Below, piece after piece: positions 5,664-25,091 of a stretch of 40,625 nucleotides of DNA; the first letter of the stretch is position 1, and each line of letters starts with the position of its first letter. The DNA comes from Deltaproteobacteria bacterium (GTDB lineage Bacteria; Myxococcota_A; Polyangia; Polyangiales; Houyiibacteriaceae): NCBI GenBank assembly GCA_013151775.1, contig JAADHO010000111.1, positions 1-40,625 on the forward strand, written 5' to 3'. The notes below the pieces were generated by a model. That model saw only the letters and a list, made by a program, of their open reading frames with translations. It searched no databases and was not told the origin of the DNA. The translations under genes and the position numbers were made by a program.

Positions 5664-8600
5664 TCAGGGAGAAACCGCGGCGGCTGCCGCTCCCCAACGT
5701 TCGTGGTTGATGGCGTCGCCTGCACGAGCCGAAAGATCGGTGGCCGAGCGATAGCGCGCCTTGGCGGCGACGTGATCCCCCGCCAGCTCGGCCAGAGCGC
5801 CGAGGGCTCCTTGGGCCGCCGCCTCGAGGGCCGGAGAGTCTGCGGCCCGGGCGTAGCCCTCGGCGATGGAGAGGTATTGCTCAGCGCCCTTGGCGTCGCC
5901 CGCGTCGATCAGCACCTCACCCAGCTCGATGCGACAGCGCGCGCGCGCGGCCACGGGAGCGGTGATCTCCTCGAGCAGCTCCGAGGCGCGCCGATAGGCG
6001 CTGACGGCGTGGCGAAGATCGCCGCCTTCCCGGCGGAGGCGGCCGAGGTAGAGCTGAATCATCGCTTCGACGGATCGGTGCTCGCCGCCACCCACGCTCT
6101 CTAGAGCGCGGCCAAAGAAGCGCATGGCGTCACGGGGACGCTGGCGAGAATGGGCGACGCTGCCCAAACTCACCCAGAGGCGGAGGCGCTCCTTGCTGCG
6201 CGGCAGGGTGAGGTCGATGGCTTCCCGTAGCACGCCGTCAGCCGTAGAGAGCTCTCCCGCGTGGGCCATGGCGTCGCCCAGCTTGCGGCTGAAGGTGACC
6301 AGCGCCGTGTCCATGACGGCGTCTCCGCTCTCGAGCATCTCCCGGCGCGCGAGGAAGAGGGCGCGCCGATAGGCCAACACCGCCGCGGAGGCGTCAGCGC
6401 GCTGACAGGCGGCGTCGCCCATGCGCTCCAGGCTCATCAAGGCGGTCAAGGGCTCGCCACAGCGGAAAGCGTGCTCGGCTCGCTCCTCCACTGACGCGTT
6501 GAGATCGGCGAGGGCGTCGAGGGCCCGCCGGTGCAGCTTGCGCCGGGCTTGGGCGGGGATCGACGCCTCGACCAGCTCGCGCACGAAGCGATGGTTGACC
6601 CGGATCGTCGAGCCGTCACGCTGTATGAGCCCGCGCCGCATGACCTCGTCGATGCCCTCCAAGTCTTCAGGCGAGGAGACGCTCCCCAACACCTCGATGT
6701 TGGTCTCTTCGCCCAAGATCGCCACCGCCTGAAGCACACGGCGCGCCGGCAGACTGAGGGCGTCCACGCTCTGGGAGACGGCGTCCGCGAGGCGCCTGGG
6801 CAGGGAGGGCTCATCGAGGGAGCTCGCGCCGGCCAAGACGAGCTGCTCGAGGTAGAGAGGCAGGAAGCGACGCGACGCGCTGGGGGTCGCGTCTTGCTCG
6901 AGGACGGCCGGCGTGGGGTGACCCATGAAGCGCGCGGCCTGTGCGGAATCGAGGCCGTGCAGGGGCAGCTCGCGCACACCCTCCTCCGCGGGGTAGCGGC
7001 CGTCGCCGGCTGTCACGAGCAGCGCCGATCGACCTTCGAAGACCTTCGCGAAATGGGACAGGGCCTCGCGGCTGGGTCCGTCCACGAGCTGGAGATCATC
7101 GACGAAGAGGGTGCAGCGCGAGCAGCGCTGACGGCGCATGGCGTCATCGGCGGCCGCCCGCATGGCGCGCGCCACGGCGCCGGAGCGCTCACCCCACTCG
7201 ACGCCCACCAGCCCCCGTGGATTCGCCAGCTCCTCGAAGCCCGCGCGCACGAGAGGGTCGGGCCAGCGCGTCTGGTCTCCGGCCTGGGCCAGCAGCTCGT
7301 CTGGAGGCAGCTCGAGCAGATCCGCGGTCAGGCGACGCGCGGCATAGTAGGGAACAGGTGCATCGCTGGGATGTGGACCGGTGACCACCACCACGTCGCC
7401 CTGATCGGCGCAGCGGGTGGCGAACTCTCGCAGCAGGCGTGTCTTACCGACGCCGATCTCTCCCAGGATTCGCACGCCTAAGGGCCGGCCCTCAGCCTCG
7501 GCGCGGATGCCGTCGAGGGCGGCCATCTCGACCGTGCGTCCGACCAGCTCGCGAGTGGACGGCGCCTCCGGCACGAAGGAGGGTCGTGGGTGGGTGGGCG
7601 CCACGGACGACGGCACCTTCATCTTCCCAGTGAGCCGCGTGCCACAGCTGCCGCAGAAACGCATGGCCTCGGGGTTCGGTTCACCACAGCTGCCGCAGAC
7701 GTTGGTCGCCCGACGGCGCTCCGCCTCGATGGCGCGACGCGCGTCTGCGAGGGCGTCGCGCATGTCTTCGGCGGTCTGATAGCGATCCTCGCGCAGCTTG
7801 GCCATGGCCTTCTGCTGCACCTGAACCAAACACTCGGGGATCTCCCGTTGGGGAGCGAACTCGCGCGGATCCGGGATGGGATCGTTGATGTGGCGCAGGA
7901 CCACGCGCGTGGGAGTCTCGTCCTCGAAGGGCAGGCGCTCGGTCAACATCTCGAAGAGCACGATGCCCAGCGCGTAGAGATCCGAGCGGCCGTCGACGAC
8001 CTCCCCACGCCCCTGCTCCGGAGCCATGTAGTCGGGAGTCCCGCACACGAGCCCGGGCCGGGTGATGGAGGTCGAGTGGGGATCCGTGATGGTCGCCAGG
8101 CCGAAGTCCACGACCTTCACCAGATCGCGCCCAGAGCGCTGCCGCTTCAACAGGATGTTCTCGGGCTTCAGATCGCGGTGCACCACTCCGAGGGCGTGGG
8201 CCTCGCCGAGGGCGTCGAGGGTGGCGTCGAGGATGCGGATGATGCGCCCAAAGGGCAGCGGGCCCTCCTCGTGCATCACCAGAGCGAGATCCTTACCGAC
8301 CAGGTACTCCATGGCCAAGAAGAGGATGCCGTCGTCCGTACGGCCGAAGTCGAAGATGGAGACGCTGTTCGGATGGTTCAGGCTGCTGGCCGCCCGCGCC
8401 TCAGTGTAGAAGCGCGCGACCGTGGCCTCGTCGCCCAAGAGATGCGGGTGGATGACCTTTACGGCCACGGTCCGACCGAGCACGCCCTGCTCCGCCCGAT
8501 ACACCCGCCCCATACCGCCCACGCCGACGATCTCCTGGATCGTGTACGCGCCACCGACCGTGCGCCCGACGAGTGGATCGCTGGCCCCAGACGAATGTTC

Positions 8601-9484: not shown

Positions 9485-11548
9485 TCAGCGGCGCGCCTCG
9501 TCCATGCGGCGCATGCCCTCGAGCAGCAGGCCCTCCGTGCTCATCTGGATGCTGCGCTGCGGGATATCGGAGGAGGGGTCGAGGCGAAAATCGCCGCTCT
9601 CGAGCAAGAGCATGGCGTAGACCGCCTCCGCGCCCTGCAGGTCGCCAAAGGTCGCGTGGTGGATCGACCCCTCGACGAAGTGAAGCGCCCCGCGCAGACC
9701 GCTGGACTCGAGCTCGAGCCTGCCGCTCTTGCGCCCGCTGCCGAGGATCTGGATGACGTCCGGCAGCGCCATCTGGGTGAGAGAGCCCGATACTCCGGCG
9801 GAGCGCCCGCGCGAGCCCTCGAGGGCCTGCCTCAGCTTGGCCGCCACCACCTCGGGCGAGGCGGGCTTGACCAGGTAGTCCACGGCGCCCAACTCGAAGC
9901 CTTGGCGCACGCTGAGGTCGTCCGATTTCCCAGTGAGAAACAAGATCGGGGCCGCGGGTCCGAGGGCCTCGCGCAGGGGCCCGAAGAGTGAGAAGCCGTC
10001 GCGACCGGAGAGCTCGACCTCCAAGATCGCGGCGTCGAAGACCGTAGCCGCAGCCTTGGCCAGAGCGGAGTCGGCCTCACGCGCGATCACCACCTCGAAG
10101 CCTCGCTCCGAGAGGCGCATCTCGAGCACCGTGGTCTCCTCGAGATCGGGGTCGACCACCAGCACCTTCTTGCGATCGGCGAGCAGCTCGCTCTGGAGCT
10201 CGTCGCCCGCCACCAGGCGACGCAGGAGGGCCAGCATGGTGGGATCGAAGAAGCGCTCCGAGTAGCGCTCCATGGCGTCGCAAGCCTCGGCTGGGGAGAG
10301 CTTCTTGCGGTAGGGGTTCTTGTCGTGGGAGGTGAGATCCGCGTAGGTCTCCGTGACCGCGAGGAGACGTGCTCCGAGGGGGATCTCCTTGCCCTTCTTG
10401 CGATCGGGGAAGCCTCGCCCGTCGTAGCGTTCGTAGAGGTGAGTCAAGGTCTCCTGCGTGACTGCGGGCAGGTGTGCCGAGTCCAGCAGACGCAGAGGGG
10501 CGAGGTGGGTCTTCTGAGCGCGTGCCCGATGGCCCTCGTATTGGAAGACGTTCAAGGGCGTGAGGTGGTAGGTGCCGGCCTTCCCCAGATCGTGGATCTG
10601 AGCGGCCAGCAGGAGGGGTTCCCGTTGCGCCTCGGCCAACCCGAGGCGCTCGGCGAGCTGGCGGCATAGCCGGCAGACCTGCGCCGAGTGACCGCGCAGC
10701 TCGCCCCGGCCTTGCTCCAGCAGCGCCACGAGTACGCCCACGGTCTCGACGTAGGTCGTCCAGCTCGGCTCACCCGATGGCGACGCGACGGCAGCGCTCG
10801 CCGAGGACTCGACGCCAGCGCTCGCCAAGGACGCAGCGAGGACGGGATCGTCGATGGTGAAGCTCGGCGGGGCAGGAGCGCTCGGCTGTCCCAAGGGGAT
10901 CGCCTTGCGCGCCGGGGCACGAACGCTGTCTCCCGCACGCGGCGGCGCGGCGGAGGTCTCGAAGGTCCCTAGACGCGAGTCGAGATCGCCCAGATCTGTG
11001 TCCGGACGCGCCGGGGGCTCCCCCTCGTCCCACAGCGGGATGCCCGTCGTGCCCGTCGACACGCTGGCGAAGGCTTGAGCCTCGCCGTAGTAGTGCTTGC
11101 GGATCAGCGCCTCGATGGAGGCCGGGCGGGCCACATAGACGTTCACGTCGTGAACGTCCGACACCATCTGGACCTGCTTGGCCACGTCGTGGGTCTCTAG
11201 ATCCGCGGCCACCACCGTCAACGACTGGCGGCGGGCGTCGAAGAGCAGCGGGAAGACCTTCAGGCGATCCGCGGCCCGTCGAGGCAGGTAGCCCAAGGCC
11301 TGCCGACTGACCTTGGCTCTGCGCAGCTTCTCGGTGCTGACGAACCGTGTTCGATACATGCCCGCTAGAAAGCGCAGGAGCTCCGCCTCGCTCATCACAC
11401 CGCTGGAGATGATGGCATCCTCGATGCGCTCACCGCCGCGACGAGCGTGCACCCGGATGCGCTCGTGCTCCGCGGCGCCGATCTTCCCTTCCGTCTGCAG
11501 ACGATCGAGGACTCGCATCCCCGGCGGTGGGCGATCGAATTCGCTCAA
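9485..11548 (-). CDS. MshEN - degenerate HD-GYP - pseudo-receiver - PATAN protein
   Basis: 687 residues. Order: a GspE/MshEN-like N-terminal domain (about 10-150), which in other proteins binds c-di-GMP; a Pro/Ala-rich linker; an HD-GYP-like domain (about 265-450) with GHS at 286-288 and His319-Asp320; a receiver domain (about 461-580); and a C-terminal DUF4388/PATAN-like domain (about 588-687). The usual HHERxDGxGYP motif reads HLYERYDGRGFP (370-381), so the His pair is absent, and the DxFDALTS motif reads ETYADLTS. The receiver has Glu510 (AILEVELSGRDG) where the phosphorylated Asp is expected, although Thr539 and Lys561 are kept. It may be a c-di-GMP-responsive scaffold rather than an active phosphodiesterase. 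The start is TTG, supported by a Shine-Dalgarno. Confidence 0.88.
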   Translation of the reverse strand: MSEFDRPPPGMRVLDRLQTEGKIGAAEHERIRVHARRGGERIEDAIISSGVMSEAELLRFLAGMYRTRFVSTEKLRRAKVSRQALGYLPRRAADRLKVFPLLFDARRQSLTVVAADLETHDVAKQVQMVSDVHDVNVYVARPASIEALIRKHYYGEAQAFASVSTGTTGIPLWDEGEPPARPDTDLGDLDSRLGTFETSAAPPRAGDSVRAPARKAIPLGQPSAPAPPSFTIDDPVLAASLASAGVESSASAAVASPSGEPSWTTYVETVGVLVALLEQGRGELRGHSAQVCRLCRQLAERLGLAEAQREPLLLAAQIHDLGKAGTYHLTPLNVFQYEGHRARAQKTHLAPLRLLDSAHLPAVTQETLTHLYERYDGRGFPDRKKGKEIPLGARLLAVTETYADLTSHDKNPYRKKLSPAEACDAMERYSERFFDPTMLALLRRLVAGDELQSELLADRKKVLVVDPDLEETTVLEMRLSERGFEVVIAREADSALAKAAATVFDAAILEVELSGRDGFSLFGPLREALGPAAPILFLTGKSDDLSVRQGFELGAVDYLVKPASPEVVAAKLRQALEGSRGRSAGVSGSLTQMALPDVIQILGSGRKSGRLELESSGLRGALHFVEGSIHHATFGDLQGAEAVYAMLLLESGDFRLDPSSDIPQRSIQMSTEGLLLEGMRRMDEARR

Positions 11549-13728: not shown

Positions 13729-14238
13729 TTGACCCGGAAACGCATACGTCTGATCTCCGCGCTCGCCTTGACCATCTGGGCCCTGGGCTGCGCGCACGCG
13801 AGCTTCCAAGGCGGCGTCTACCGAGACGAGGAGGCCAGCTACCACGTGGGCGAGTTCGGCTCCGATTGGCGCCGCCTCGAGCTCGACGAGCCGACGGACC
13901 TCGCCTTCGAGGCGCCCGCGCTGGACGTGGTGGCGCAGGTGAACGCGAGCTGCGATCCCGCGCTCGACATCCCCCTCTCGTCGCTCACGAACCACCTCCT
14001 GATCGGCTTCACGGAGCGCGAGGGGCGTGAGCAGCAGACGCTGCCCTTCGCCCAACGCGAGGCGCTCTTCACACAGCTCGACGCCAAGCTCGACGGTGTG
14101 CCTCGCCGGCTGCGCCTGGTGGTGCTGAAGAAAAACGGCTGCGTCTACGACTTCGCCCTGATCGGGCCTCCCGATGCACGCTTCGATCGAGCGCGCAGGG
14201 ACTTCGACGCCTGGCTCTCGGGGTTCTCGGCGCCATGA
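13729..14238 (+). CDS. Lipoprotein heading the MlaE/ABC/NosL gene run
   Basis: 169 residues from a TTG codon at 13729; the first Met-type alternatives would cut into the signal sequence. A hydrophobic segment ends in WALGC, so Cys21 is the likely lipidated residue. The mature part has the pattern FQGGVYRDEEASYHVG, a central NASCDPALDIPL stretch and a C-terminal amphipathic region (FDRARRDFDAWLSGF). I cannot name the family with certainty; it looks like the auxiliary lipoproteins sometimes found beside MlaE-type permeases. The stop overlaps the next start as ATGA (14235-14238), strong evidence for cotranslation with mlaE. No clear Shine-Dalgarno precedes the TTG, so the start is tentative. Confidence 0.75.
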   Translation: MTRKRIRLISALALTIWALGCAHASFQGGVYRDEEASYHVGEFGSDWRRLELDEPTDLAFEAPALDVVAQVNASCDPALDIPLSSLTNHLLIGFTEREGREQQTLPFAQREALFTQLDAKLDGVPRRLRLVVLKKNGCVYDFALIGPPDARFDRARRDFDAWLSGFSAP

Positions 14239-15050
14239 CGCAGGTGTCGCGCACCTCGCTCCCGCCGGAGGAGCGAGGCGGCTGGTTCGAGCGCCGCGTC
14301 ACCAACATCGCGGCCGGCTTCGGTCACGCCGGGGGCGTCACGCTCTTGGCTCTGCGATCTCTGCGCACGCTCTTCCGCACGCGCCTCGAGGTCGGCGCCG
14401 TCATCTACCAGATGGAGCAGCTCGGCGTGCAGAGCATGGGCATCGCCGCCGCCACGGCCATCTTCGTGGGCATGGTGATGACAATTCAATTCGCCTTCGC
14501 CATGGAGCAGTTCGGAGCCATCGGCAACATCGGCCGGGTGATCGTGCTCTCCGAGGCGCGCGAGCTCGCGCCCTCGCTCACGTCCCTGGTGGTCGGCAGC
14601 CGGATCGCCGCGGGCATGGCCGCGGAGATCGGCTCCATGGTGGTGACGGAGCAGGTGGACGCGATCCGCGCGCTGGGCGCGGACCCGATCAAGAAGCTGG
14701 TGATCCCGCGCATCCTCGCCGCCGTGATCACCATGCCGATGATCTGCGCCCTGGCGTTCTTGCTCGGCACCATCAGCGCCATGTTCGTGGCCGCCGTCTC
14801 CTACAACATCCAACCCGAGTTCTTCATCTCCACGGCCCTCGGATCCGTCACCCTGCGGGACTTCGGCAGCGGCCTGGCGAAGACCCCCTTCTTCGGCTTC
14901 TTGGTCGCGCTGCTCGGTTGCTACTTCGGTCTGGAGACGCGCGGCGGCACGGAGGGCGTGGGCCGCTCCACCACGCGCTCGGTGGTCGTGGTCTCGATAG
15001 GCGTGCTGATCGCCGACGCCCTGCTGACGCAGATCTTCCTCAGCCTCTAG
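14235..15050 (+). CDS. mlaE: MlaE/YrbE-family ABC permease
   Basis: 271 residues. The family forms the inner-membrane permease of Mla-type phospholipid transporters, working with an MlaF ATPase and an MlaD (MCE) protein. Visible hallmarks: the amphipathic N terminus, IYQMEQLGVQSMGIAAATAIFVGMVMTIQ, the ELAPSLTSLVVGSRIAAGMAAEIGSM region, EQVDAIRALGADPIKKLVIPRILA, and KTPFFGFLVALLGCYFGLETRGGTEGVG near the end. About five to six TM helices. The start overlaps the upstream lipoprotein stop. Unusually, no MCE-domain gene follows; the only ATPase in the run is of the LolD/MacB class and sits next to an FtsX-like permease. Either MlaD and MlaF are encoded elsewhere, or this permease has been recruited by a different transporter. 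Confidence 0.88.
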   Translation: MTQVSRTSLPPEERGGWFERRVTNIAAGFGHAGGVTLLALRSLRTLFRTRLEVGAVIYQMEQLGVQSMGIAAATAIFVGMVMTIQFAFAMEQFGAIGNIGRVIVLSEARELAPSLTSLVVGSRIAAGMAAEIGSMVVTEQVDAIRALGADPIKKLVIPRILAAVITMPMICALAFLLGTISAMFVAAVSYNIQPEFFISTALGSVTLRDFGSGLAKTPFFGFLVALLGCYFGLETRGGTEGVGRSTTRSVVVVSIGVLIADALLTQIFLSL

Positions 15051-15055
15051 CGAAC

Positions 15056-15403
15056 ATGGCCTACGTCCCCGGCAAACGCCTGACTCGCCTGCTCTTCGTG
15101 GTCGCCCTGTATGGCCTGGCGATCCTGGCCCTCAGCTGGAACGTGAGCGCGCGGCGGGCTCGAGAGGCCGCTCGACGGGAGTCGACGCGAGCGGTGGTGG
15201 CGCTCCTGGGCTTCGCAGATTTGGCCCTCTCGTCGGACGCACGCTGGCTGCGTCATCCCTCCCAGACCGAACCGGGGGCTGCCTTCGCCGACCTGCCCGG
15301 CGCGCTGGACATCGACCCCGCGGGCGCCGCCATCGGCCCACCGCTCCCGCTGCTCGAGCGCGGCGGATGCGAACTCCGCGTCGTGCACAGGGGCGCGCCA
15401 TGA
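15056..15403 (+). CDS. Small one-TM membrane protein, unknown
   Basis: 115 residues. One N-terminal TM helix (about residues 9-28) is followed by a basic stretch (ARRAREAARRESTR) and a polar, probably periplasmic domain of about 75 residues ending in GGCELRVVHRGAP. No domain is recognised. The ATG at 15056 is five bases after the mlaE stop, and the stop overlaps the next gene as ATGA (15400-15403), so it sits firmly inside the operon. Reading frame continues upstream through mlaE, but that part is a shadow. Confidence 0.7.
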   Translation: MAYVPGKRLTRLLFVVALYGLAILALSWNVSARRAREAARRESTRAVVALLGFADLALSSDARWLRHPSQTEPGAAFADLPGALDIDPAGAAIGPPLPLLERGGCELRVVHRGAP

Positions 15404-16587
15404 GGCGTACGCTGGCCATCCTCGACTACGCCCTGGGTGCCACGCGTCGCCGCGGCGGACGCAACCTCGCCATCGCCGCGGGTCTCGCCTTCGTGGTGGG
15501 CCTGGTCTCCGCCGTACTGCTGCTCACGGGCGCTCTGGAGCGAGAGTTCGCGCTCAGTGTCGACGCCACTCCTGACCTGGTCGTGCAGCGAGTCGTGGGC
15601 GGGCGCCCCGGGCTGATCGAGGTCGACTCTAGTAGCGCCCTGAGTGAGCTGCCCGCCGTGAGCAGCGTACGCCCGCGCGTCTGGGGATATCTCTTCGTGC
15701 CCTCCCTGGAAGCCAACGTGACCATCGTGGGCGCGACTCCTGGCGAGCTGGGCGAGGCCCTGAGCCATCAGATCGTGGAGGGCCGCGGGCCACGGCCCGG
15801 CGCGAATCAGGAGTGCCTGGCGGGAGCCGCCCTGGCGAAGCGGCTGGGGCTACGTCCGGGAGATGGCATCGCGCTGCCCGTCCACGGGGACATCCGCGTG
15901 CTCGACGCCGTCGGCCTCTTCCACGCAGACAGCGCCCTGCACAGCGCCGACGTGCTCGTGGTCTCCGAGAGCATGGCGCGGGATCTCCTGGGGATCCCGC
16001 AGGGCATGGCGACGGATCTCGCCATCCGGCTGACGACGCCCGACGAGGCGGGGGTAGTCGCCAACCATCTGGAGCGGGCCTTGGGCCAAGTCGGCCAAGT
16101 GCGTGTGCTGGACAAGCGCCTGCTGGCGCGGACCTACGAGCTGACCTTCGGCGGCCGCTCCGGGCTCTCGGCCATCATGCTGCTGCCGGCGCTGGCGGCT
16201 TTCCTGTTGCTCGCCTGGGAGCGGCTCACGGGCCTCGGCGGGGTAGAGCGCCGCGAGATCGGCGTGCTCAAGGCCATCGGCTGGAGCACCTCCGACGTGC
16301 TGCTCGCCCGTCTACTCGAGAGCGGCCTAGTGTCCCTCGGTGGAACCCTCTTCGGGCTCCTCGCGGGCTACGTCTACGTCTTTCAATTTGGCGCCCCGGG
16401 CCTACGCGCGGCCTTGCTGGGCTGGAGCACGCTCTACCCGGAGCTGGTCTTGGTTCCCAACGCCGACCTAGGGCAAGCCGCGGCGCTGCTGGGCGCCGTG
16501 GTCGTGCCCTTCATCGCCACCAGCCTGGTGCCCGCCTGGCGCGCGGCCGTGGTGGATCCCGACGAGACCATGCGAGGGGCCGCGTGA
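15400..16587 (+). CDS. FtsX/MacB-type ABC transporter permease
   Basis: 395 residues. An N-terminal TM helix (about 22-45) is followed by a periplasmic region of about 200 residues (containing VVGGRPGLIEVD and VTIVGATPGELGEAL), then three C-terminal TM helices in the FtsX fold, with the coupling-helix signature ERREIGVLKAIGWSTSDVLLARLLESG and a terminal PAWRAAVVDPDETMRG. This class (LolC/E, MacB, NosY-like exporters) uses mechanotransmission and usually pairs with a LolD-type ATPase, which is exactly the next gene. Start ATG overlaps the preceding stop (ATGA) and the stop overlaps the ATPase start (GTGA). The substrate cannot be read from the sequence; the neighbouring NosL-like gene suggests metal or thiol-linked envelope maturation, as inference. 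Confidence 0.88.
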   Translation: MRRTLAILDYALGATRRRGGRNLAIAAGLAFVVGLVSAVLLLTGALEREFALSVDATPDLVVQRVVGGRPGLIEVDSSSALSELPAVSSVRPRVWGYLFVPSLEANVTIVGATPGELGEALSHQIVEGRGPRPGANQECLAGAALAKRLGLRPGDGIALPVHGDIRVLDAVGLFHADSALHSADVLVVSESMARDLLGIPQGMATDLAIRLTTPDEAGVVANHLERALGQVGQVRVLDKRLLARTYELTFGGRSGLSAIMLLPALAAFLLLAWERLTGLGGVERREIGVLKAIGWSTSDVLLARLLESGLVSLGGTLFGLLAGYVYVFQFGAPGLRAALLGWSTLYPELVLVPNADLGQAAALLGAVVVPFIATSLVPAWRAAVVDPDETMRGAA

Positions 16588-17291
16588 CACGGGAGCCGGC
16601 CAGCACGGAGGCGTCGACGGAGGAGGCGCTCGGCGTGTCCCACGTCTTCAAGCGCTACCGCGACGGTGACACCATGGTCGAGGCGGTGAGCGACGTGAGC
16701 CTCAGCGTTCCGCGAGCGAGCCTCAGCGTGCTCGTGGGGCCGAGCGGCGCCGGCAAGACCACCCTCTTGGGTATCCTCGGGGGGCTCGTCCTGCCGACCC
16801 GCGGCGACGCCCGGATCGACGGACGCAGCGTGGTGCATCTCCGGGACCATCACCGCACAGCTCTGCGACGCCAGAAGGTCGGCTTCGCCTTTCAGGATCT
16901 CGCGCTGATCCACGGCATGTCCCTGCTCGAGAACGTACTGCTTCCACTCACCCCGCAGGGTGGAGCTCGCAAACAGGATGTGGCGCGTGCGGAGGGCCTA
17001 CTCGAGCGCTTCGGCTTGCTCGACAAACGAGATCGCCGCGTGGAGCGCCTCTCGGGTGGCGAGAAGCAGCGCGGCGCCATCGCTCGTACACTGATCTTGG
17101 AGCCACCCATTCTGCTGCTCGACGAGCCCACGGCCCACCTCGACGGCGAGAACGCGGCGGCCATCGTGGACGCACTCGCCGAGCTGCGCGACGAGGGGAC
17201 TACGCTGGTCGCGGCCACCCACGACGCCCGGCTCTCGGAGGACCCGCGGATCGACCGTGCGCTGCACATGGCCGACGGAAAGCTATGCTGA
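16584..17291 (+). CDS. ABC transporter ATP-binding protein, LolD/MacB class
   Basis: 235 residues from GTG 16584. Walker A GPSGAGKTT (about 52-60), Q-loop FAFQDLALIHGMSLLENVLLP, signature LSGGEKQRGAIART, Walker B ILLLDEPTAHLD and H-loop AATHD are all present, so it should hydrolyse ATP. The spacing and the IHGMSLLENV segment fit the LolD/MacB/FtsE subfamily that partners FtsX-type permeases. It overlaps the permease stop by four bases (GTGA) and the next start by seven bases. About 16 extra N-terminal residues precede the first conserved strand. It is the only ATPase in the operon and so is the probable energiser of the adjacent permease; whether it also drives the MlaE protein is unknown. 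Confidence 0.93.
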   Translation: MTREPASTEASTEEALGVSHVFKRYRDGDTMVEAVSDVSLSVPRASLSVLVGPSGAGKTTLLGILGGLVLPTRGDARIDGRSVVHLRDHHRTALRRQKVGFAFQDLALIHGMSLLENVLLPLTPQGGARKQDVARAEGLLERFGLLDKRDRRVERLSGGEKQRGAIARTLILEPPILLLDEPTAHLDGENAAAIVDALAELRDEGTTLVAATHDARLSEDPRIDRALHMADGKLC

Positions 17292-18316
17292 CGAACCTGC
17301 TCCGGCCGTGGATCCTGGCGCGCCTGCTCTCGGGGATCTCGGTCGGGGCTCTGACGCTGATGGCCCTCTTCGTCGCCTGGCGCGTGTTGCGTGAATTCCG
17401 GCCGCAAGAGACCAGCGAGGGGCAGCTGCTGCTCGAACGACGTGCGGAGCTGGTGGCCACCGTGGTCCAGGCGGCCCTGGGATTGAGCGTCTTCAACCTC
17501 GCCCTGACGGTCCTCGCCGCGGACCACCTCAGCGGGGCCATTCGGGGCGCCATGTGCGCCTACGGTGTGTTCTCGGCCAACGACCTGGGCTTCCTTCCCC
17601 TCGGCACCAGCGCCCTCGCGTCCCTCGGCTGTGTGCTCTGGCTGGTGCTGCACCGTCTCGATCTGGCGTTGCCCGATCCAAGGCTCACGCGGCGAAAGTT
17701 CATGGCGCTCTTCATCGTGGGACCGCTGATCCTGCTCGACCTCTGGGCGACCCTCTCCTGGGCCTTCGACCTCGATCTAGGCGTGGTCGCGACCTGCTGC
17801 TCAACCAGCATCGACCGAGCTGGCGTGCAGACGCTCGGCGCTGCGCCCATGGGCGGTCGCGTGACGCTCTACTACCTCGCCCTCGCGACCCTGGCGCTCA
17901 GCGTGCTCGCCCTGGTCGCGCTCGCCCGCCGAGCAGGCCGCCCTCGCGCCCTGCTCGCGGCCGCGCTCTCCGCCCTCAGCGTCGCGCTCAGCCTGCCCGC
18001 CATCGTGGCCTACGTCGCGCCCCACGTGTACGAGAACCCGCGCCACCTCTGCCCCTTCTGCCTGCTTCACGCTGACGCCTGGGGTATCGGCTGGCCCCTG
18101 TTCGCATCGCTCTTCCTAGGCGGCTCCCTGGGACTCGGCCTGGTCGTGCTCGAGTCCCAACGACGCCTGGTCTCGGACGACGAGCTGTTGGCCACTCACG
18201 AGGCCCGGATCGCCCGGCTGGCCGCCCTGGCCTTTGTGATTACATTTCTACTCTGCGTCTTTCCCGTGGCTCACTATGCGTGGATCTCGGGCGGCGCCTC
18301 GCTCTTCGGAGGTTGA
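17285..18316 (+). CDS. Eight-TM membrane protein with Cys pairs, NosL-linked
   Basis: 343 residues with about eight hydrophobic segments. Two cysteine clusters stand out: VVATCCSTS in a loop after the fourth TM helix, and a CPFC motif (HLCPFCLLHAD) just before the seventh. The CPFC next to a helix recalls thiol-redox membrane proteins such as VKOR/DsbB-like enzymes, and the His and Cys residues would also suit metal handling. I do not recognise the family. The start overlaps the ABC ATPase stop by seven bases and the NosL-like gene begins five bases after the stop, so it is part of the same operon. A role in delivering electrons or metal to the exported substrate is inference. Confidence 0.8.
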   Translation: MLTNLLRPWILARLLSGISVGALTLMALFVAWRVLREFRPQETSEGQLLLERRAELVATVVQAALGLSVFNLALTVLAADHLSGAIRGAMCAYGVFSANDLGFLPLGTSALASLGCVLWLVLHRLDLALPDPRLTRRKFMALFIVGPLILLDLWATLSWAFDLDLGVVATCCSTSIDRAGVQTLGAAPMGGRVTLYYLALATLALSVLALVALARRAGRPRALLAAALSALSVALSLPAIVAYVAPHVYENPRHLCPFCLLHADAWGIGWPLFASLFLGGSLGLGLVVLESQRRLVSDDELLATHEARIARLAALAFVITFLLCVFPVAHYAWISGGASLFGG

Positions 18317-18321
18317 TCCCC

Positions 18322-18768
18322 ATGAGGTCTCTACACATCCACTTCGTCACCCTGCTGAGCCTGACGCTCTGGTGTGCGGCATGCTCGCAGACGCCCACGC
18401 GAGCGCGCTGCGTGCAGTGCGGGATGCCGATCGACCCGACCTCACGCTGGACCGCAGGCGTGACGGGCGCCTCCGGGGAGGAGCAGCTCTTCGACTCACC
18501 CAAATGTCTGTTCCGCTACATGCGCGGGGACGACGGCCGCGGCGCGAGCCTGCCGTGGTTCACGGAGTACTATTCCCAAGAGCGACGCCCTGGCACCTCC
18601 CTGCGCTTCGTCCTGGGCTCGAACCTCTCTGGACCCATGGGCGCGGATCTAGTGCCCGTGGAGGGCGAGCAGGCCGCACGCCGCTTCGCGGCCGATCACG
18701 TCGGCGAGCAGGTGTTGACCTACGAAGAGGTGGACGAGGCGCGGCTGCGCACGATCGACGCTCCCTGA
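18322..18768 (+). CDS. NosL-like copper-binding lipoprotein
   Basis: 148 residues. The hydrophobic N terminus ends in WCAAC (Cys21), a weak lipobox. The mature protein opens with CVQCGMPI (Cys30, Cys33, Met35), matching the CxxCGM motif of the NosL family, whose characterised member is a Cu(I)-binding lipoprotein for nitrous oxide reductase assembly. FDSPKCLFRYM and GSNLSGPMGADLVPV further down also fit that family. No nosZ, nosD or nosF gene is in the window, so nitrous oxide metabolism is not implied; many NosL homologues have other copper-related roles. The start ATG is supported by GGAGG at 18308-18312. It is the last tightly packed gene of the operon beginning at 13729. Confidence 0.85.
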   Translation: MRSLHIHFVTLLSLTLWCAACSQTPTRARCVQCGMPIDPTSRWTAGVTGASGEEQLFDSPKCLFRYMRGDDGRGASLPWFTEYYSQERRPGTSLRFVLGSNLSGPMGADLVPVEGEQAARRFAADHVGEQVLTYEEVDEARLRTIDAP

Positions 18769-18802: not shown

Positions 18803-19801
18803 ATGTCGCGCCACCGACCTCCCCGGCTCCCGATGCATGGGGTGATCCTCGGGGCGCTGATCTGTGCAGCCGCCGTCGCGCCCACAGCGGCCCGCGCGCA
18901 GCATGCGGTGCACTCGGGCTTCTGGCGCGAGCTGCGCACCCCGGGCTTTCGACGCTCTCGGGAGCTCCTGCGCCAAGGTCGAGCGCTCTTGGCGCTGGCG
19001 GGCAGAGAGCGACGTGCGTCTCACAACGCGAGGCTGCTGAGCGCCATCCGCCGCTTTCGCCTGGCGCGTGAGCTGGCGCCGAACGATCCCGAGGCGCTCT
19101 TCGAATTGGGCCGGAGCAAGGCGTCCCTGAGGTGGCCCACGGCGGGCGGCGGAGAGGAGCTGACCCAAGCCGACGAGGCGCGGGCGCTGCTGCTCGAATT
19201 GCGAGCGCGCTTCCCAGACTACGAGGCGCGACGCGTCGCCTTCGAGCTGGGCGTGCTCGCGGCCCACGCGCAGGATTTTCCGCGGGCGGCGCGCGAGTAC
19301 GAGCGCTCCCTCGAGGCCCGACGCGTCGGGGAGGGGGCGCCGAGCATGCACGCCAACCTAGCCGAGGTGTACATGCTCTCGGGCGATCTCGAGCGAGCCG
19401 AGGAGCAGTACCGCGTGGCCATCCGGCTGGCGCGTCCGGGGCGAGGCTTGGCCCTCTCCCGCTTCGGCTTGGCGGTCTGCTTGGACCGACGGGACGAGCC
19501 GCGGAAGGCCCTCGCCATGGTGCGTCGAGCGATGGCCGCCGGAGGGGGAAGCACGGACGTGCTGCGCTCGAGCGGCGTGTTCTTCGAGCCGGCCGCGGAG
19601 CTGCACTACTACGAGGCCTTGGCGCTGCGCGCCCGGGCAGAGGACGCGAGGGCCCGTACCCAACGCGCCCGTCTCTTGCGCCAAGCCGCCTCGGCTCTGC
19701 GCCGCTACCTGGGAGGCGTGGCTCCGGAGACGCCCTTCTATGAGCTGGCCGCGCGCCGGCTCGAGTCCCTGCGCCGAGCGCTCCGAAGCGCTAGCCCTTA
19801 A
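18803..19801 (+). CDS. Secreted TPR-repeat protein
   Basis: 332 residues. An N-terminal signal peptide (about 1-32, AARAQ cleavage region) is followed by helical repeats. RRFRLARELAPNDPEALFELGRSK, AAREYERSLEARR, HANLAEVYMLSGDLERAEEQYRVAIRLA and LGGVAPETPFYELAARRLES fit tetratricopeptide repeats, which usually mediate protein contacts. It starts 34 bases after the NosL-like gene in the same direction, so it may be the eighth member of that operon or have its own promoter. No catalytic motif is seen. It ends 49 bases before the stop of the convergent repeat lipoprotein. Confidence 0.82.
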   Translation: MSRHRPPRLPMHGVILGALICAAAVAPTAARAQHAVHSGFWRELRTPGFRRSRELLRQGRALLALAGRERRASHNARLLSAIRRFRLARELAPNDPEALFELGRSKASLRWPTAGGGEELTQADEARALLLELRARFPDYEARRVAFELGVLAAHAQDFPRAAREYERSLEARRVGEGAPSMHANLAEVYMLSGDLERAEEQYRVAIRLARPGRGLALSRFGLAVCLDRRDEPRKALAMVRRAMAAGGGSTDVLRSSGVFFEPAAELHYYEALALRARAEDARARTQRARLLRQAASALRRYLGGVAPETPFYELAARRLESLRRALRSASP

Positions 19802-19850: not shown

Positions 19851-22800
19851 TCAGTTGATGTCGATATTGATGACGCGGACCGAGAACGGCGTGATCGCTG
19901 CGTACAACGCATCGGCACTGCCGGAGGGATCACCGACCACGTCGTAGGCCTGCGATCCGTCGACGATCGAGTCGGGGACGCCGGTCACGGTCACCGTTTG
20001 GCTGTTGGACCAGTTGGAGGACGTGAAGGTCAGCGACGATGCGCTGAGGCTGCCCTCGCTGGTGTCCCATGTGAACGTGATGACGACGTTCGAGGTGGGC
20101 TGAGAGTTCAGCACCACGTCGAAGGCGTCCATCGTGCCACTCTCGGAGGTCACCAAGTCCCGGCGCGGAGTCACCGTGATGCCGGGCGTCTCGTCGTCCA
20201 GATTGACGCCGGTAGCCGAGCTACCCATCAAGCCCACGTAGTTGGAGTCGCTGCTGGTCGAAGGTCCGACGTCGATCGTGAAGGGCTGGTTTCCGTCAGC
20301 GATGAAGTCGTCGATGCCGGTGACGGTCACGCTCTGATAGATGTTCCAGTTCGTGGCGTTGAAGACGATCGACGCGACGATCGTATCCGCCTCATCTGGG
20401 TCTGCGCTGGAGAAGGGCACGGTGACGGGTGCGGTGGGTTGCGAAAGCAAGCGCACGCGGAACGCTCCGGTGACGCTCCCCGACTCGTTGGTCAGAAGCC
20501 CGGTGTTCGAGATGACCTCGATACCGGGGACCTCGTTGTCGGTGTTCAGAGCCGGCACATCCGCGACGGCCAACCCGCTGTAGCCCGCGTCCGCACTCAC
20601 AGCTGCGCTCGTGACGATGGAATAGGGCTGGTTGCCGTCGGCGACAAAGTCGTCGACGCCGGTCACGGTGATGGTTTGGTTCACGTTCCAGTCGGCCGCC
20701 GTGAACGTCACGCTGGCTGGCGAGACCGTTCCCTCGCTCACATCGTCGCTCGAGAGGTTGATGGTGACGGAACTGAACGGCTCACTGTTGAGCTTGATGG
20801 TGAAGGTGTCGGTGGAGCCAGTCTCCGTCGTGTTCAGGGGATTGCCCGGATTCGGCACCGTCACCGTCACGCCAGCCGTCTCATCGTCGACACAAGTGGC
20901 CACCACATCGTCGACAGCGAAGCCGCTGTAGTTGGCGTCGGAGCTCGAGGCGGCTGCGGTGGTCACGGTGAAGGTCTGATCTCCGTCCGCGAGGGCGTCG
21001 TCCACTCCGGTGACGGTGACCGTCTGAGGTCCATTCCAGTTGGCAGAGGTGAAGGTCACGGACGCGGGAGAGACGCTGCCCTCGGTCGAGTCGGCGCTCG
21101 ACAGCCCGATCGTCACGTCTGCCGTGGGTTGCGAGGTCAGCACGATGGTGAAGGTGTCCGTGCCGCCCGCTTCAGTGACGCTCAGCCCGGTGAGGGGAGT
21201 CACGGTCACACCCGCCGTCTCGTCATCGGTGTTCGTCGCCGAGACATCGGGCGCGTTCCGCCCATTGTAGCCGGAGTCCGCGCTCACGGCGGGGGCCGTG
21301 ACCAGCGTGTAGCCAACGTTTCCGTCCGCGACGAAGTCGTCGACACCGGTTACCGTCACCCGCTGAGGTGCGTTCCAGTTGGCGGCCGTGAACGTCAGGG
21401 ACGCAAGGTCTACCGTGCCCTCCGTGGTGTCGTTGCTCGAGACGGCGATGGTCACGTTCGCCGTCGGCTGGGAGTCGAGGAAGACGTCGAAGTGCGCGCT
21501 TCCGCCCACCTCGCTCGTCGTCAGGCCCGACGTGGGCACCACGGTGATGCCCGGGCTGTCGTCGTCGACGTTGGTGGCCGTGACATCCGCCGGATCGATC
21601 CCGGCATAGGTCGAATCGCTGCTCGTCGCGGCTCCCAAGACGATGTGATAGGTCTGGTCTCCATCGGCGATCACGTCGTCGACACCGGTCACCGTGACGG
21701 TCTGGAAGGAGTTCCAGTTCAGCGTGCTGAACGTCAAGCTCGCCACGTCCGCGACGCCCTCACCCGCGTCGTCCGTCGCGACCGAAATGGTCACGCTGGC
21801 GGTGGGCTCAGAACGCAGACGAACCTGGAACGAATCTGTCGTCCCATCTTCACGCGTGGTGATGGAGAGCGGTAGCACCTCGAAGCCCGCCGTCTCGTTG
21901 TCGATGTTGGTCATCCCAACGTCTCCACGGTCCAACCCATTGTAGGAGCCGTCCCCACTCGTCGCAGCCAAGATCTGCACTGTGTAGGGCTGGTTCCCGT
22001 CGGCGATGAGGTCATCGACACCGGTCACCGTCACCGATTGGTAGGCGCCCCAGTTCCCCGAGGCACCGGACGTGAACGTCAGGCTCGAGGGGCTGATCGT
22101 GCCTTCGCCGGTATCGCTGCTCGCGAGGGGCACGGTGACGTTCGCCGTGGGCTCCGAGCGGAGCCGAAGCTTGAACACGTAGCTGCCGCCCGCCTCCGTG
22201 GTCTCCCGAGGTCGAGGCGCGCTGAGCTGGATGCCCGCGGTCTCGTCATCCTGGTTGATGACGGAGACGCTGTCGGCGGGCAGCGAGTCGTAGGCCGGCT
22301 GCATGCTGCTCGTGCCCGTGTTGGTGATGCTGTAGGACTGGTCGCCATCCGCGAAGAAGTCATCGACGCCAGTGACCGTGATGGTCTGAGCGGCGTTCCA
22401 GTTGGCCGTCGTGAAGGTCAGAGCGGCGGGACTGATGCTGCCCTCTGCGGTGTTGGAGCTCGCGAAGGCGATGTCCACGTTCGCGGTCGGAGCGACGTTC
22501 AGCACGACGTCGAAGCTGGCCGTGCCACCCGCCTCCGTGGTGATGAGGCCCGCGGTGGGCGTGACGCTCACGCCAGGGTCTTGGTCCATGTTCGTGGCGC
22601 CGACGTCGGTCGGATCCATCGTGTCATAACCCGCGTCCGTCGAGGTCGCGGGAGCGAGCGCGATCGTGTAGGGCTGGTCGCCGTCGAAGATCCCGTCGGA
22701 GACGCCCGTGACCGTGACGGCCTGGGGCGCGTTCCAGTTAGCGACCGTGAAGGTGAGTGTGGCCGTGGAGACCGTGCCCTCGCCCGTGTCCGAGCTCGCC

Positions 22801-24947
22801 ACGGGGATCGTCACAGGCGCCGTGGGCTGGGAGTTCAGCACCACCGTGAAGCTGTCCGTGCCGCCTGCCTCCGTGGTGACGAGACCACTGGTCGGCGTCA
22901 CCGTGATGCCGGCGCTGTCGTTGTCCGTGTTGCTCACGGCGACGTCGGGCGGGTCCATGCCCGTGTAGTTGCCGTCCGTGCTGGTCGCCGCACCCACCAG
23001 CGCCTGGTAGAGCTGGTTGCCATCCTGCACGGCGTCATCGACGCCGGTCACCGTCACGGTCTGGGCCGCGTTCCAGTTGGCAGACGTGAACGTGAGCGAG
23101 GCCGGGCCAACCGTGCCTTCGCTGGTGTCGTCCGAGCTGATGGCGAAGACCACGTCCATCGTTGGGCGGCTGTTGAGCACCACTGTGAACGTGTCCGTAC
23201 CGCCCGCCTCGGTCGTAACCAGACCCGACGTCGGCGTCACCGTCACGCCCGCGCTGTCGTTGTCCGTGTTGCTCACGGCGACGTCGGGCGGGTTCATGCC
23301 CGTGTAGTTGGCGTCCGTGCTGGCCGCCGCACCCACGAGGGCGTTGTAGACCTGATTGCCGTCCTGCACCGAGTCATCGACGCCGGTGACAGTCACGGTC
23401 TGGGGCGCGTTCCAGTTGTCGACCGTGAAGCTCAGAGACGCGGGAGCGACGGTGCCCTCGGAGGTGTCGTCCGAGCTGATGGCAAACGTCACGTCCATCG
23501 TTGGGCGGGTGTTGAGCACCACCGTAAACGTGTCCGTTCCGCCCGCCTCCGTCGTGACCAGACCCGACGTCGGCGTCACCGTCACGCCCGCGCTGTCGTT
23601 GTCCGTGTTGGTCACCTCGACGTCCGCGGCGTCCACGGTGTCGTAGCCGGTGTCGGTCGACGTGGCCGCTGCGGTCTGGATGCGGAAGACTTGGTTCCCG
23701 TCCTGCACCGCGTCATCCACGCCCGTCACCGTGACGGTCTGGGGAGCGTTCCAGTTGTCGAACGTGAAGGTCAAAGACGCGGGCAGCGCCGTGCCCTCCG
23801 TGTCGTCACTGCTGCTGATGCCAATGCTGACGTCCGCCGTGGGTCGACTGTTGAGCACCACCGTGAACGTGTCCGTAGTGCCCGCTTCGCTCACGGAGAG
23901 TCCGTCCACGGGAGCCACGGTGATGCCGGCGCTGTCGTCGTCCGTGTTGGTGACCTCGGCGTCGTCGGGGTCGACGGCGTCGTAGCCGGTGTCGGTCGAC
24001 GTCGCCGCACCGAACACGACCTGATAGACCTGCGAGCCATCCGCGACCGCGTCGTCCACACCGGTCACGGTGACGGTCTGCGGCGCGTTCCAGTTGTCCA
24101 TCGTGAACGTGAGGGAATCGGGGCTGACTGTGCCTTCACTCTCGTCGCTCGACGAGACGGGGATCGTCACGTCGGCCGAGGGCGCGCTGTTGAGCACGAC
24201 CGTGATGTCGGCGCTGCCGCCAGCTTCGGTGGTCGTCGAGCCCGTGAGAGGATCCACGGTGATGCCCGCGGTCTCGTCATCGGTGTTCGTGAGCTCCACG
24301 TCGTCGGCGTCCAGCCCGTCATACGCGGCGTCCGCGCTCGTGGCCGCGCCGGTCAGCGCGTTGTAGACCTGATCGCCATCGACCGTGTCATCGTCCACGC
24401 CGGTGACCGTGACGGTCTGGGGTGCGCTCCAGTTGTCCATGGTAAAGGTGAGGGAGTCGGGGCTGACGGTGCCTTCACTCTCGTCGCTCGAGCTGAGCGG
24501 GATGGTCACGTCGGCCGTGGGTGCGGTGTTCAAAACGACGGTGAAATCAGCGCTGCCACCCATCTCCGTGGTCGTCAGGCCGCTCGTCGGATCCACGGTG
24601 ATGCCCGCGGTCTCGTCATCGGTATTGGTGACCTCCACATCGTCGACGACCATGCCGCTGTAATCTGTGTCGTCGCTCATCACGTCGGAGGTGACGACGC
24701 TGTAGCTCTGATCGCCATCCGCGATGTCATCGTCGACCCCGGTGATGGTGACGATCTGCGGAGCGCTCCAGTTGTCCGTCGTGAACGTCACGCTGAGAGG
24801 CGAGACCGTGCCTTCGCCTTCATCGCTCGAGCTGAGGGTGATCGCGACGTCCGCGGTCGGCTGCGCGTCGAGCACGATGGTGAACGTGGCTTGCTCTCCA
24901 CTCTCCGACGTGCGCAAGCCGGTGGTCGGGGTGACGCTGACGCCCGC
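19851..24947 (-). repeat. Tandem array, 15 units of about 339 bp
   Basis: Coding repeats with a period of about 339 bases (113 codons). Repeat openings can be read at residues 49, about 162, 275 and so on, to the last unit ending at the stop codon. Units 5 to 7 (roughly 22575-23591) are nearly identical to each other, while units 9, 10, 13 and 14 are more diverged, indicating recent duplication in the middle of the array. Confidence 0.9.
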
Positions 24948-25091
24948 CATGGCGACCATCGCGTCTGCTCCCCCGTCCACGTCCCCATCCATCCCTCCGT
25001 CGCTCCGGCCGCCTCCCCCACAAGCCTGAAGTCCCAGAATTCCGCCAAGCGCCAGAATGATGGCGCAACTATGCAAGCCCCGATAATTCAT
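19851..25091 (-). CDS. Giant lipoprotein of 15 tandem Calx-beta-like repeats
   Basis: 1746 residues. The N-terminal signal ends in LGLQAC (lipidated Cys24), followed by a Gly/Asp-rich linker to residue 48. The rest is 15 tandem units of about 113 residues with the pattern GVTVTPTSGLxTTEAGG...FTVVLNSxPTADVTI...SSDxSEGTVSPxSLTFT...NWNAPQTVTVTGVDDxxxDGxQxY...DVxxTNxDDE. The beta-strand-rich pattern and conserved Asp residues resemble Calx-beta/adhesin domains and suggest a calcium-stiffened rod standing out from the cell surface. No catalytic domain is present. The ATG at 25091 has an excellent AGGAGG five bases upstream (25097-25102 on the other strand). G+C is visibly lower than in flanking genes. 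A long open frame antisense to it is a by-product of codon bias. The likely role is adhesion or matrix, as inference. Confidence 0.9.
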   Translation of the reverse strand: MNYRGLHSCAIILALGGILGLQACGGGGRSDGGMDGDVDGGADAMVAMAGVSVTPTTGLRTSESGEQATFTIVLDAQPTADVAITLSSSDEGEGTVSPLSVTFTTDNWSAPQIVTITGVDDDIADGDQSYSVVTSDVMSDDTDYSGMVVDDVEVTNTDDETAGITVDPTSGLTTTEMGGSADFTVVLNTAPTADVTIPLSSSDESEGTVSPDSLTFTMDNWSAPQTVTVTGVDDDTVDGDQVYNALTGAATSADAAYDGLDADDVELTNTDDETAGITVDPLTGSTTTEAGGSADITVVLNSAPSADVTIPVSSSDESEGTVSPDSLTFTMDNWNAPQTVTVTGVDDAVADGSQVYQVVFGAATSTDTGYDAVDPDDAEVTNTDDDSAGITVAPVDGLSVSEAGTTDTFTVVLNSRPTADVSIGISSSDDTEGTALPASLTFTFDNWNAPQTVTVTGVDDAVQDGNQVFRIQTAAATSTDTGYDTVDAADVEVTNTDNDSAGVTVTPTSGLVTTEAGGTDTFTVVLNTRPTMDVTFAISSDDTSEGTVAPASLSFTVDNWNAPQTVTVTGVDDSVQDGNQVYNALVGAAASTDANYTGMNPPDVAVSNTDNDSAGVTVTPTSGLVTTEAGGTDTFTVVLNSRPTMDVVFAISSDDTSEGTVGPASLTFTSANWNAAQTVTVTGVDDAVQDGNQLYQALVGAATSTDGNYTGMDPPDVAVSNTDNDSAGITVTPTSGLVTTEAGGTDSFTVVLNSQPTAPVTIPVASSDTGEGTVSTATLTFTVANWNAPQAVTVTGVSDGIFDGDQPYTIALAPATSTDAGYDTMDPTDVGATNMDQDPGVSVTPTAGLITTEAGGTASFDVVLNVAPTANVDIAFASSNTAEGSISPAALTFTTANWNAAQTITVTGVDDFFADGDQSYSITNTGTSSMQPAYDSLPADSVSVINQDDETAGIQLSAPRPRETTEAGGSYVFKLRLRSEPTANVTVPLASSDTGEGTISPSSLTFTSGASGNWGAYQSVTVTGVDDLIADGNQPYTVQILAATSGDGSYNGLDRGDVGMTNIDNETAGFEVLPLSITTREDGTTDSFQVRLRSEPTASVTISVATDDAGEGVADVASLTFSTLNWNSFQTVTVTGVDDVIADGDQTYHIVLGAATSSDSTYAGIDPADVTATNVDDDSPGITVVPTSGLTTSEVGGSAHFDVFLDSQPTANVTIAVSSNDTTEGTVDLASLTFTAANWNAPQRVTVTGVDDFVADGNVGYTLVTAPAVSADSGYNGRNAPDVSATNTDDETAGVTVTPLTGLSVTEAGGTDTFTIVLTSQPTADVTIGLSSADSTEGSVSPASVTFTSANWNGPQTVTVTGVDDALADGDQTFTVTTAAASSSDANYSGFAVDDVVATCVDDETAGVTVTVPNPGNPLNTTETGSTDTFTIKLNSEPFSSVTINLSSDDVSEGTVSPASVTFTAADWNVNQTITVTGVDDFVADGNQPYSIVTSAAVSADAGYSGLAVADVPALNTDNEVPGIEVISNTGLLTNESGSVTGAFRVRLLSQPTAPVTVPFSSADPDEADTIVASIVFNATNWNIYQSVTVTGIDDFIADGNQPFTIDVGPSTSSDSNYVGLMGSSATGVNLDDETPGITVTPRRDLVTSESGTMDAFDVVLNSQPTSNVVITFTWDTSEGSLSASSLTFTSSNWSNSQTVTVTGVPDSIVDGSQAYDVVGDPSGSADALYAAITPFSVRVINIDIN

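Follow-up and report, generated by a model that had tools for sequence, protein, structure and literature searches.

Organisation of the locus

The DNA analysed here, referred to throughout as the window, is a stretch of 40,625 nucleotides that forms contig C31 in an assembly of 6.05 Mb and 460 contigs from a bacterium of the order Polyangiales. Seven consecutive genes on its forward strand, at positions 13729–18768, join an MlaE-type permease to an ABC transporter, a thiol-rich membrane protein and a NosL-family lipoprotein. These genes belong to two modules: a lipoprotein gene and mlaE, which form a core pair in Polyangiales, and a five-gene accessory cassette that may hand over copper in the cell envelope. 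The genes, with the evidence on which each assignment is based, are as follows.

13729..14238, forward: LIP, 169-residue lipoprotein (open reading frame with lipobox; structural model with PsbP/Mog1 fold)
14235..15050, forward: MlaE, lipid ABC permease (Pfam MlaE, 5.7e-65; TIGR00056 just over cut-off)
15056..15403, forward: P115, 115-residue protein with a single transmembrane helix, first cassette gene here (alignment; position upstream of FtsX)
15400..16587, forward: FtsX, permease of a Type VII ABC transporter, its periplasmic domain MacB-like (Pfam MacB_PCD, 3.8e-10; FtsX, 2.5e-9)
16584..17291, forward: LolD-class ATPase of the cassette (Pfam ABC_tran, 2e-32)
17285..18316, forward: 8-TM, thiol-rich membrane protein with eight predicted transmembrane (TM) helices (structural model; invariant Cys motifs)
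18322..18768, forward: NosL2, NosL-family lipoprotein, paralogue of the nos-operon NosL on contig C277 (Pfam NosL, 5.1e-15)

Successive genes are separated by –4, +5, –4, –4, –7 and +5 bases. An earlier reading of the DNA from its letters and open reading frames (the sequence-only reading) had described seven genes with overlaps of 4, 4, 4 and 7 bases and two gaps of 5, and all of these were reproduced from the gene calls. The overlaps are not due to chance, because –4 junctions recur in relatives. A sigma-70 scan found no promoter-like site. The Pfam matches to MlaE, MacB_PCD, FtsX, ABC_tran and NosL were all above cut-off, and Pfam and NCBIfam scans returned no family match for LIP, P115 or the 8-TM protein.

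Five genes are inherited as one system

Distribution counts were taken over 145 Polyangiales genomes, most of them draft metagenome-assembled genomes (MAGs), using a home-made gene caller that was checked against the window. The 8-TM gene was present in 44 of these genomes and missing from 101, and was also found in five genomes outside the order, which belong to four families of the same phylum. Because relatedness makes the genomes interdependent, families are the better unit for counting the evidence: there are six within the order and four outside it.

In the five genomes from outside Polyangiales, and at one further locus (L076), the genes lie on one strand in the order NosL–P115 (or P115-like)–FtsX–LolD–8-TM, mostly with 4-base overlaps. 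Within Polyangiales the set is often split into P115–FtsX, which may be preceded by LIP–MlaE, and 8-TM–NosL. Twelve genomes carried no FtsX gene near the 8-TM gene. An FtsX orthologue was found elsewhere in all 12 (39–55% identity, E ≤ 1e-72), with P115 upstream of it in every case; a P115-like open reading frame occupies the same position in the other families. By comparison, the orthologue was missing from all of 26 genomes lacking the 8-TM gene (best E 5e-11). Each of the 12 split genomes has its LolD gene at one of the two loci and never at both: it accompanied FtsX in five (G003, G010, G012, G044 and G059) and the 8-TM gene in seven (G049, G056, G061, G078, G104, G120 and G130). Its overlaps with its neighbours in the window and this complementary placement assign the ATPase to the cassette.

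NosL was present in 43 of the 44 genomes with the 8-TM gene, and in 34 of them the two genes share a contig and lie no more than about 2.5 kb apart; in the single exception (G140) the 8-TM gene is at a contig edge. Seven genomes had NosL and no 8-TM gene. In six of these NosL lies about 4–6 kb from NosZ, and in the seventh (G070) the match is weak and partial. The association of the 8-TM gene with a non-nos NosL gave a Fisher p of 1e-34, with related genomes counted as independent. The co-occurrence of FtsX when unlinked, the presence of LolD at one locus only and the co-occurrence of NosL together show that the split halves are one system. P115, FtsX, LolD, 8-TM and NosL2 thus make up a single accessory system, independent of LIP–MlaE. 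The sequence-only reading had placed these five proteins in one system, and in this it was borne out by the fixed gene order in other families and by co-occurrence where the genes are unlinked. No description of an FtsX/LolD/8-TM partnership with NosL was found in the literature searched, and we regard the five-gene partnership as undescribed.

Among genomes with a name, the nearest was the Myxococcales MAG CG_2015-01_69_45, with 83% identity in the 8-TM protein. A scan of genome contigs with a close relative as the query gave matches only in Myxococcales, Polyangiaceae, Sandaracinus and Labilithrix. No 8-TM relative was found in the plasmids or viral contigs searched, and a NosL search of plasmids yielded haloarchaeal matches only. 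In G198 (L122) a prolipoprotein diacylglyceryl transferase (Lgt) gene, at 7638–8420, lies directly behind the 8-TM gene and is followed by a DsbA-like thioredoxin gene at 6870–7412. An additional 8-TM copy of half length occurs in G308 (L124, 8747–9367); it retains only the half with CC and HxCPWC, and the other cassette genes are not alongside.

LIP and MlaE are a core pair outside the cassette

LIP was found in 132 of the 145 Polyangiales genomes, including 90 of the 101 without the 8-TM gene. Among 20 further loci that were inspected, most from genomes lacking the cassette, 17 had LIP followed by MlaE. The MlaE of the window scored 219 bits with PF02405 and 213.2 bits with TIGR00056 (cut-off 212.2). 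LIP–MlaE is therefore a core, housekeeping pair of Polyangiales, in which MlaE is partnered by LIP, and it stands outside the NosL cassette.

The sequence-only reading had noted that MCE, MlaF and nos genes are lacking. This holds for the window and does not hold for the genome, which has MCE genes on contigs C54, C123 and C231 and a complete nos operon on C277. The MlaF–MCE pair on C123 (L090, 3117–5119) has no adjoining MlaE; the genes downstream of it read as thyA and dihydrofolate reductase. In one relative, G041 (L197), the order MlaE–MlaF–MCE–LIP occurs in one operon. The G041 MlaE matched the MlaE of the window best (207 bits versus 140 for the next match). For the G041 MlaF and MCE, which adjoin MlaE and LIP there, the best matches in the genome of the window were the C123 pair, with 241 and 175 bits versus 198 and 57. 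Judged from these sequence matches, LIP–MlaE and the MlaF–MCE pair on C123 are probably the two separated halves of one ordinary Mla transporter. The likeness to MlaFEDB lies in the MlaE of the window and in the united genes of G041; the differences are that here the transporter is split over two contigs, carries a lipoprotein of predicted PsbP/Mog1 fold and is separate from the NosL cassette.

The lipobox cysteine of LIP is invariant. A structural model of the protein (pLDDT 93) matched cyanobacterial PsbP in Foldseek (1.3e-6) and the mycobacterial envelope lipoprotein LpqN with a Z score of 13.9, and on this model LIP is assigned as a lipoprotein with a PsbP/Mog1 fold. The G041 operon makes LIP a probable core companion of Mla in Polyangiales. 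The otherwise orphan MlaE of the window now has a probable MlaF–MCE partner. A gene on the reverse strand of the window at 9485–11548, for a long protein that reads as HD-domain/response-regulator type, recurs in the neighbourhood of LIP in several relatives (cluster c6).

These results bear on the broader claim of the sequence-only reading, that MlaE, FtsX/LolD, the 8-TM protein and NosL form one composite system coupling copper- or thiol-dependent maturation to lipid or lipoprotein export. The overlapping genes of the window speak for such a system, as does the position of LIP–MlaE beside P115–FtsX at 10 of the 12 unlinked loci. The occurrence of LIP in so many genomes without the cassette speaks against it, as do the LIP–MlaE pairs that stand alone at most inspected loci, the G041 operon, and the cassettes without a neighbouring MlaE in families f5 and f7 and four other families. 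We consider the composite system very improbable. Membership of MlaE in the NosL system was rejected on the distribution of LIP and MlaE together with the G041 synteny. The sequence-only reading had itself named MlaD or MlaF in the same locus in relatives as evidence against the composite, and for MlaE the G041 operon is such a case. Of its proposed coupling, copper or thiol handling is still plausible, and the link to lipid export through MlaE is not supported.

The cassette is independent of nitrous oxide reductase

NosL is usually taken as a marker of nitrous oxide reduction. The genome of the window does contain a complete TAT-type nos operon, NosZ-R-D-F-Y-L with a c-type cytochrome, on C277 (L087, 8969–16986), with NosZ at 898 bits (cut-off 625) and NosD at 392 (cut-off 300). 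None of NosD, NosF and NosY is encoded in the window; they are on C277 with NosZ and the second NosL. Five genomes, this one among them, encode both a NosL beside NosZ and a second NosL of the cassette type.

An accessory role in the maturation of nitrous oxide reductase was weighed against the distribution of NosZ. Such a role would fit the family membership of NosL2 and those cassette genomes, such as G078, in which NosZ occurs without a second NosL. NosZ, however, was found in 16 of the 44 genomes with the 8-TM gene and in 35 of the 101 without it (p = 0.85). A NosZ match was missing in 28 cassette genomes, among them the gapless or nearly gapless G044, G059 and G120, and the NosZ of the present genome has a full NosRDFYL set of its own. 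The cassette is independent of NosZ, and NosZ was rejected as its target on this distribution; that the cassette nevertheless serves as an accessory to the nos pathway is highly unlikely. Because a tightly co-inherited cassette NosL ignores NosZ, NosL annotations in Myxococcota genomes without NosZ need another explanation. A NosL–NosDFY locus without NosZ has been noted in Parageobacillus (PMC13068155), so NosL outside nitrous oxide reduction is not in itself new. Several small relatives in genus g2 (G002, G013, G017 and others) have NosZ and no detectable NosL.

Components of the cassette

NosL2 scored 56.4 bits with PF05573 (cut-off 24). Its profile matched Pseudomonas stutzeri NosL in 7osf, one of the NosDFY structures, at 3.6e-19, with the CxxCGM and GxMG motifs aligned. 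Across 26 aligned sequences the lipobox Cys21 and residues C30, C33, G34, M35 and M106 were invariant. NosL proteins have a CXM motif and another absolutely conserved methionine, CXXCXM being the clade II form (Bennett et al., PMC6530538), and NosL2 retains the Cys/Met residues proposed as Cu(I) ligands in NosL (PMC6530538). A NosL2 relative in G152 (L121, 5594–6442) has a Cys/His-rich N-terminal extension with 12 Cys and 6 His in 140 residues, and in G354 a gene for a DsbD_2-family membrane protein (L125, 3809–4489) is divergent from the cassette NosL.

The 8-TM protein had no sequence match in Pfam, NCBIfam or PDB and defines a membrane-protein family without a Pfam entry. An AlphaFold model (pLDDT 91, pTM 0.89) supports eight transmembrane helices. 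Structure searches gave no significant fold match in PDB; the matches obtained, to CcmF, COX3 and designed bundles, were at the level of helical bundles and were taken as uninformative. The motifs GAMC..GV, CC and HxCPxCL do not vary between families, and five cysteines are invariant. Net positive charge is found in loops 1, 3 and 5 and, weakly, in loop 7, but not in the three loops that contain these cysteines; the positive-inside rule then predicts a periplasmic position for all five. An internal duplication was considered and rejected: the halves align solely around the Cys loops, and not significantly.

P115 has a conserved tail, RHPS...P..D.DPAG, in alignments. FtsX matched PF12704 (MacB-like periplasmic core) and, at its C terminus, PF02687, both over cut-off. 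Its closest solved relative was the LolC periplasmic domain (E 0.0012). The closest models for the ATPase were LolD, FtsE and YbbA, all far under the equivalog cut-offs. By these domain matches FtsX and the ATPase are assigned to the Type VII ABC transporters, which act on the periplasmic side by mechanotransmission and do not move substrates across the membrane (PMC12646458). The likeness to the known members LolCDE, MacB, FtsEX and YbbAP–TesA lies in the FtsX and MacB_PCD domains and the LolD-class ATPase; the partners differ, being the 8-TM thiol protein and NosL instead of LolA, MacA/TolC, EnvC or TesA.

This kinship raises two alternatives. A LolCDE-like machine could extract or sort NosL2 as a dedicated lipoprotein from the inner membrane, in which case copper would be incidental; this might be suggested by the LolC and LolD resemblances, the lipoprotein nature of NosL2 and the Lgt gene behind the cassette in G198. 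The equivalog tests failed, however (LolC/E, 22.6 versus 362 bits; LolD, 179.8 versus 307.8 bits), the cassette has no LolA or LolB, and the conserved 8-TM cysteines would be left unexplained; we judge this quite unlikely. Alternatively, the transporter could work like MacB in efflux or detoxification, expelling copper or another soft metal bound by NosL2 and the 8-TM protein from the envelope. MacB efflux pumps do belong to the Type VII family (PMC12646458), both proteins are thiol-rich, and the distribution is accessory and patchy (44 of 145), but neither this operon nor the compact operons of other families showed a MacA-like adaptor, TolC, a P-type ATPase or a metal regulator. Efflux is therefore also unlikely, if less so.

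In the kinds of components it contains, the cassette most resembles the P19 cluster of Campylobacter jejuni, genes 1649–1656 (PMC6083913), in which a metal-binding periplasmic protein, a Cys-rich membrane protein, ABC permeases and an ATPase are likewise encoded in one operon. An iron or redox variant of that cluster, importing or reducing iron, would share these parts. The cassette differs in having NosL and a single permease gene and in having no FTR1, P19, DUF2318 protein or thioredoxin; the 8-TM motif is unlike the CxxC-x13-CxxC of DUF2318, and Pfam detects no DUF2318. A P19-type role is accordingly improbable.

A proposed copper hand-over machine

The reading we favour, with a probability of about one half, is that the run consists of two modules, LIP–MlaE and a five-part envelope machine that hands over copper for a target other than NosZ. 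The one pointer to copper is the membership of NosL2 in the NosL family. NosL2 would hold Cu(I) on the periplasmic face of the inner membrane, and the 8-TM protein would accept or donate it through the thiols of GAMC, CC and HxCPxC. ATP hydrolysis by LolD, acting through FtsX and its periplasmic domain, would power a cycle of docking and release and so give the hand-over a direction; P115 may be a small membrane partner of FtsX. The direction of transfer and the part played by P115 are suppositions of the scheme.

The cassette would then work like NosDFY–NosL on another ABC chassis and with another target. The analogy draws on the structural mechanism of NosDFY–NosL. Both have a NosL-family lipoprotein, in the cassette a putative Cu(I) carrier, with the same conserved Cys/Met residues, and a dedicated ABC permease and ATPase. 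The cassette differs in its FtsX/LolD Type VII chassis in place of NosFY, in having no NosD β-helix, in the addition of the 8-TM protein and P115, and in its independence of NosZ. Going further, we suggest tentatively, as the less likely outcome, that the Type VII transporter, the NosL paralogue and the new 8-TM thiol family form an ATP-driven copper-insertion machine that loads a Myxococcota envelope cuproenzyme. If so, NosL-type copper delivery has been recruited onto a mechanotransmission ABC transporter. The cassette offers a concrete, testable candidate for ATP-driven periplasmic metal hand-over and a new partner set for the Type VII class.

Several observations count against copper hand-over. 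Among the neighbours of the cassette no conserved cuproenzyme gene was seen. Multicopper-oxidase-type domains were considered as the target and rejected: they do not co-occur with the 8-TM gene (32 of 44 versus 68 of 101, p = 0.56) and are absent from the genome of the window. The ligand residues of NosL can bind soft metals in general, which makes a zinc, iron or redox role possible, and the fold searches gave no informative relative for the 8-TM protein. The Fisher p-values are inflated by shared ancestry. Finally, P115–FtsX adjoins LIP–MlaE in 10 of the 12 split genomes, so the cassette may yet have a functional or regulatory tie to lipid transport.

Neighbouring genes

Downstream of the run the window contains a gene for a TPR protein at 18803–19801. 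This is followed on the reverse strand, at 19851–25091, by a gene for a protein of 1746 residues with many repeats of about 95 residues.

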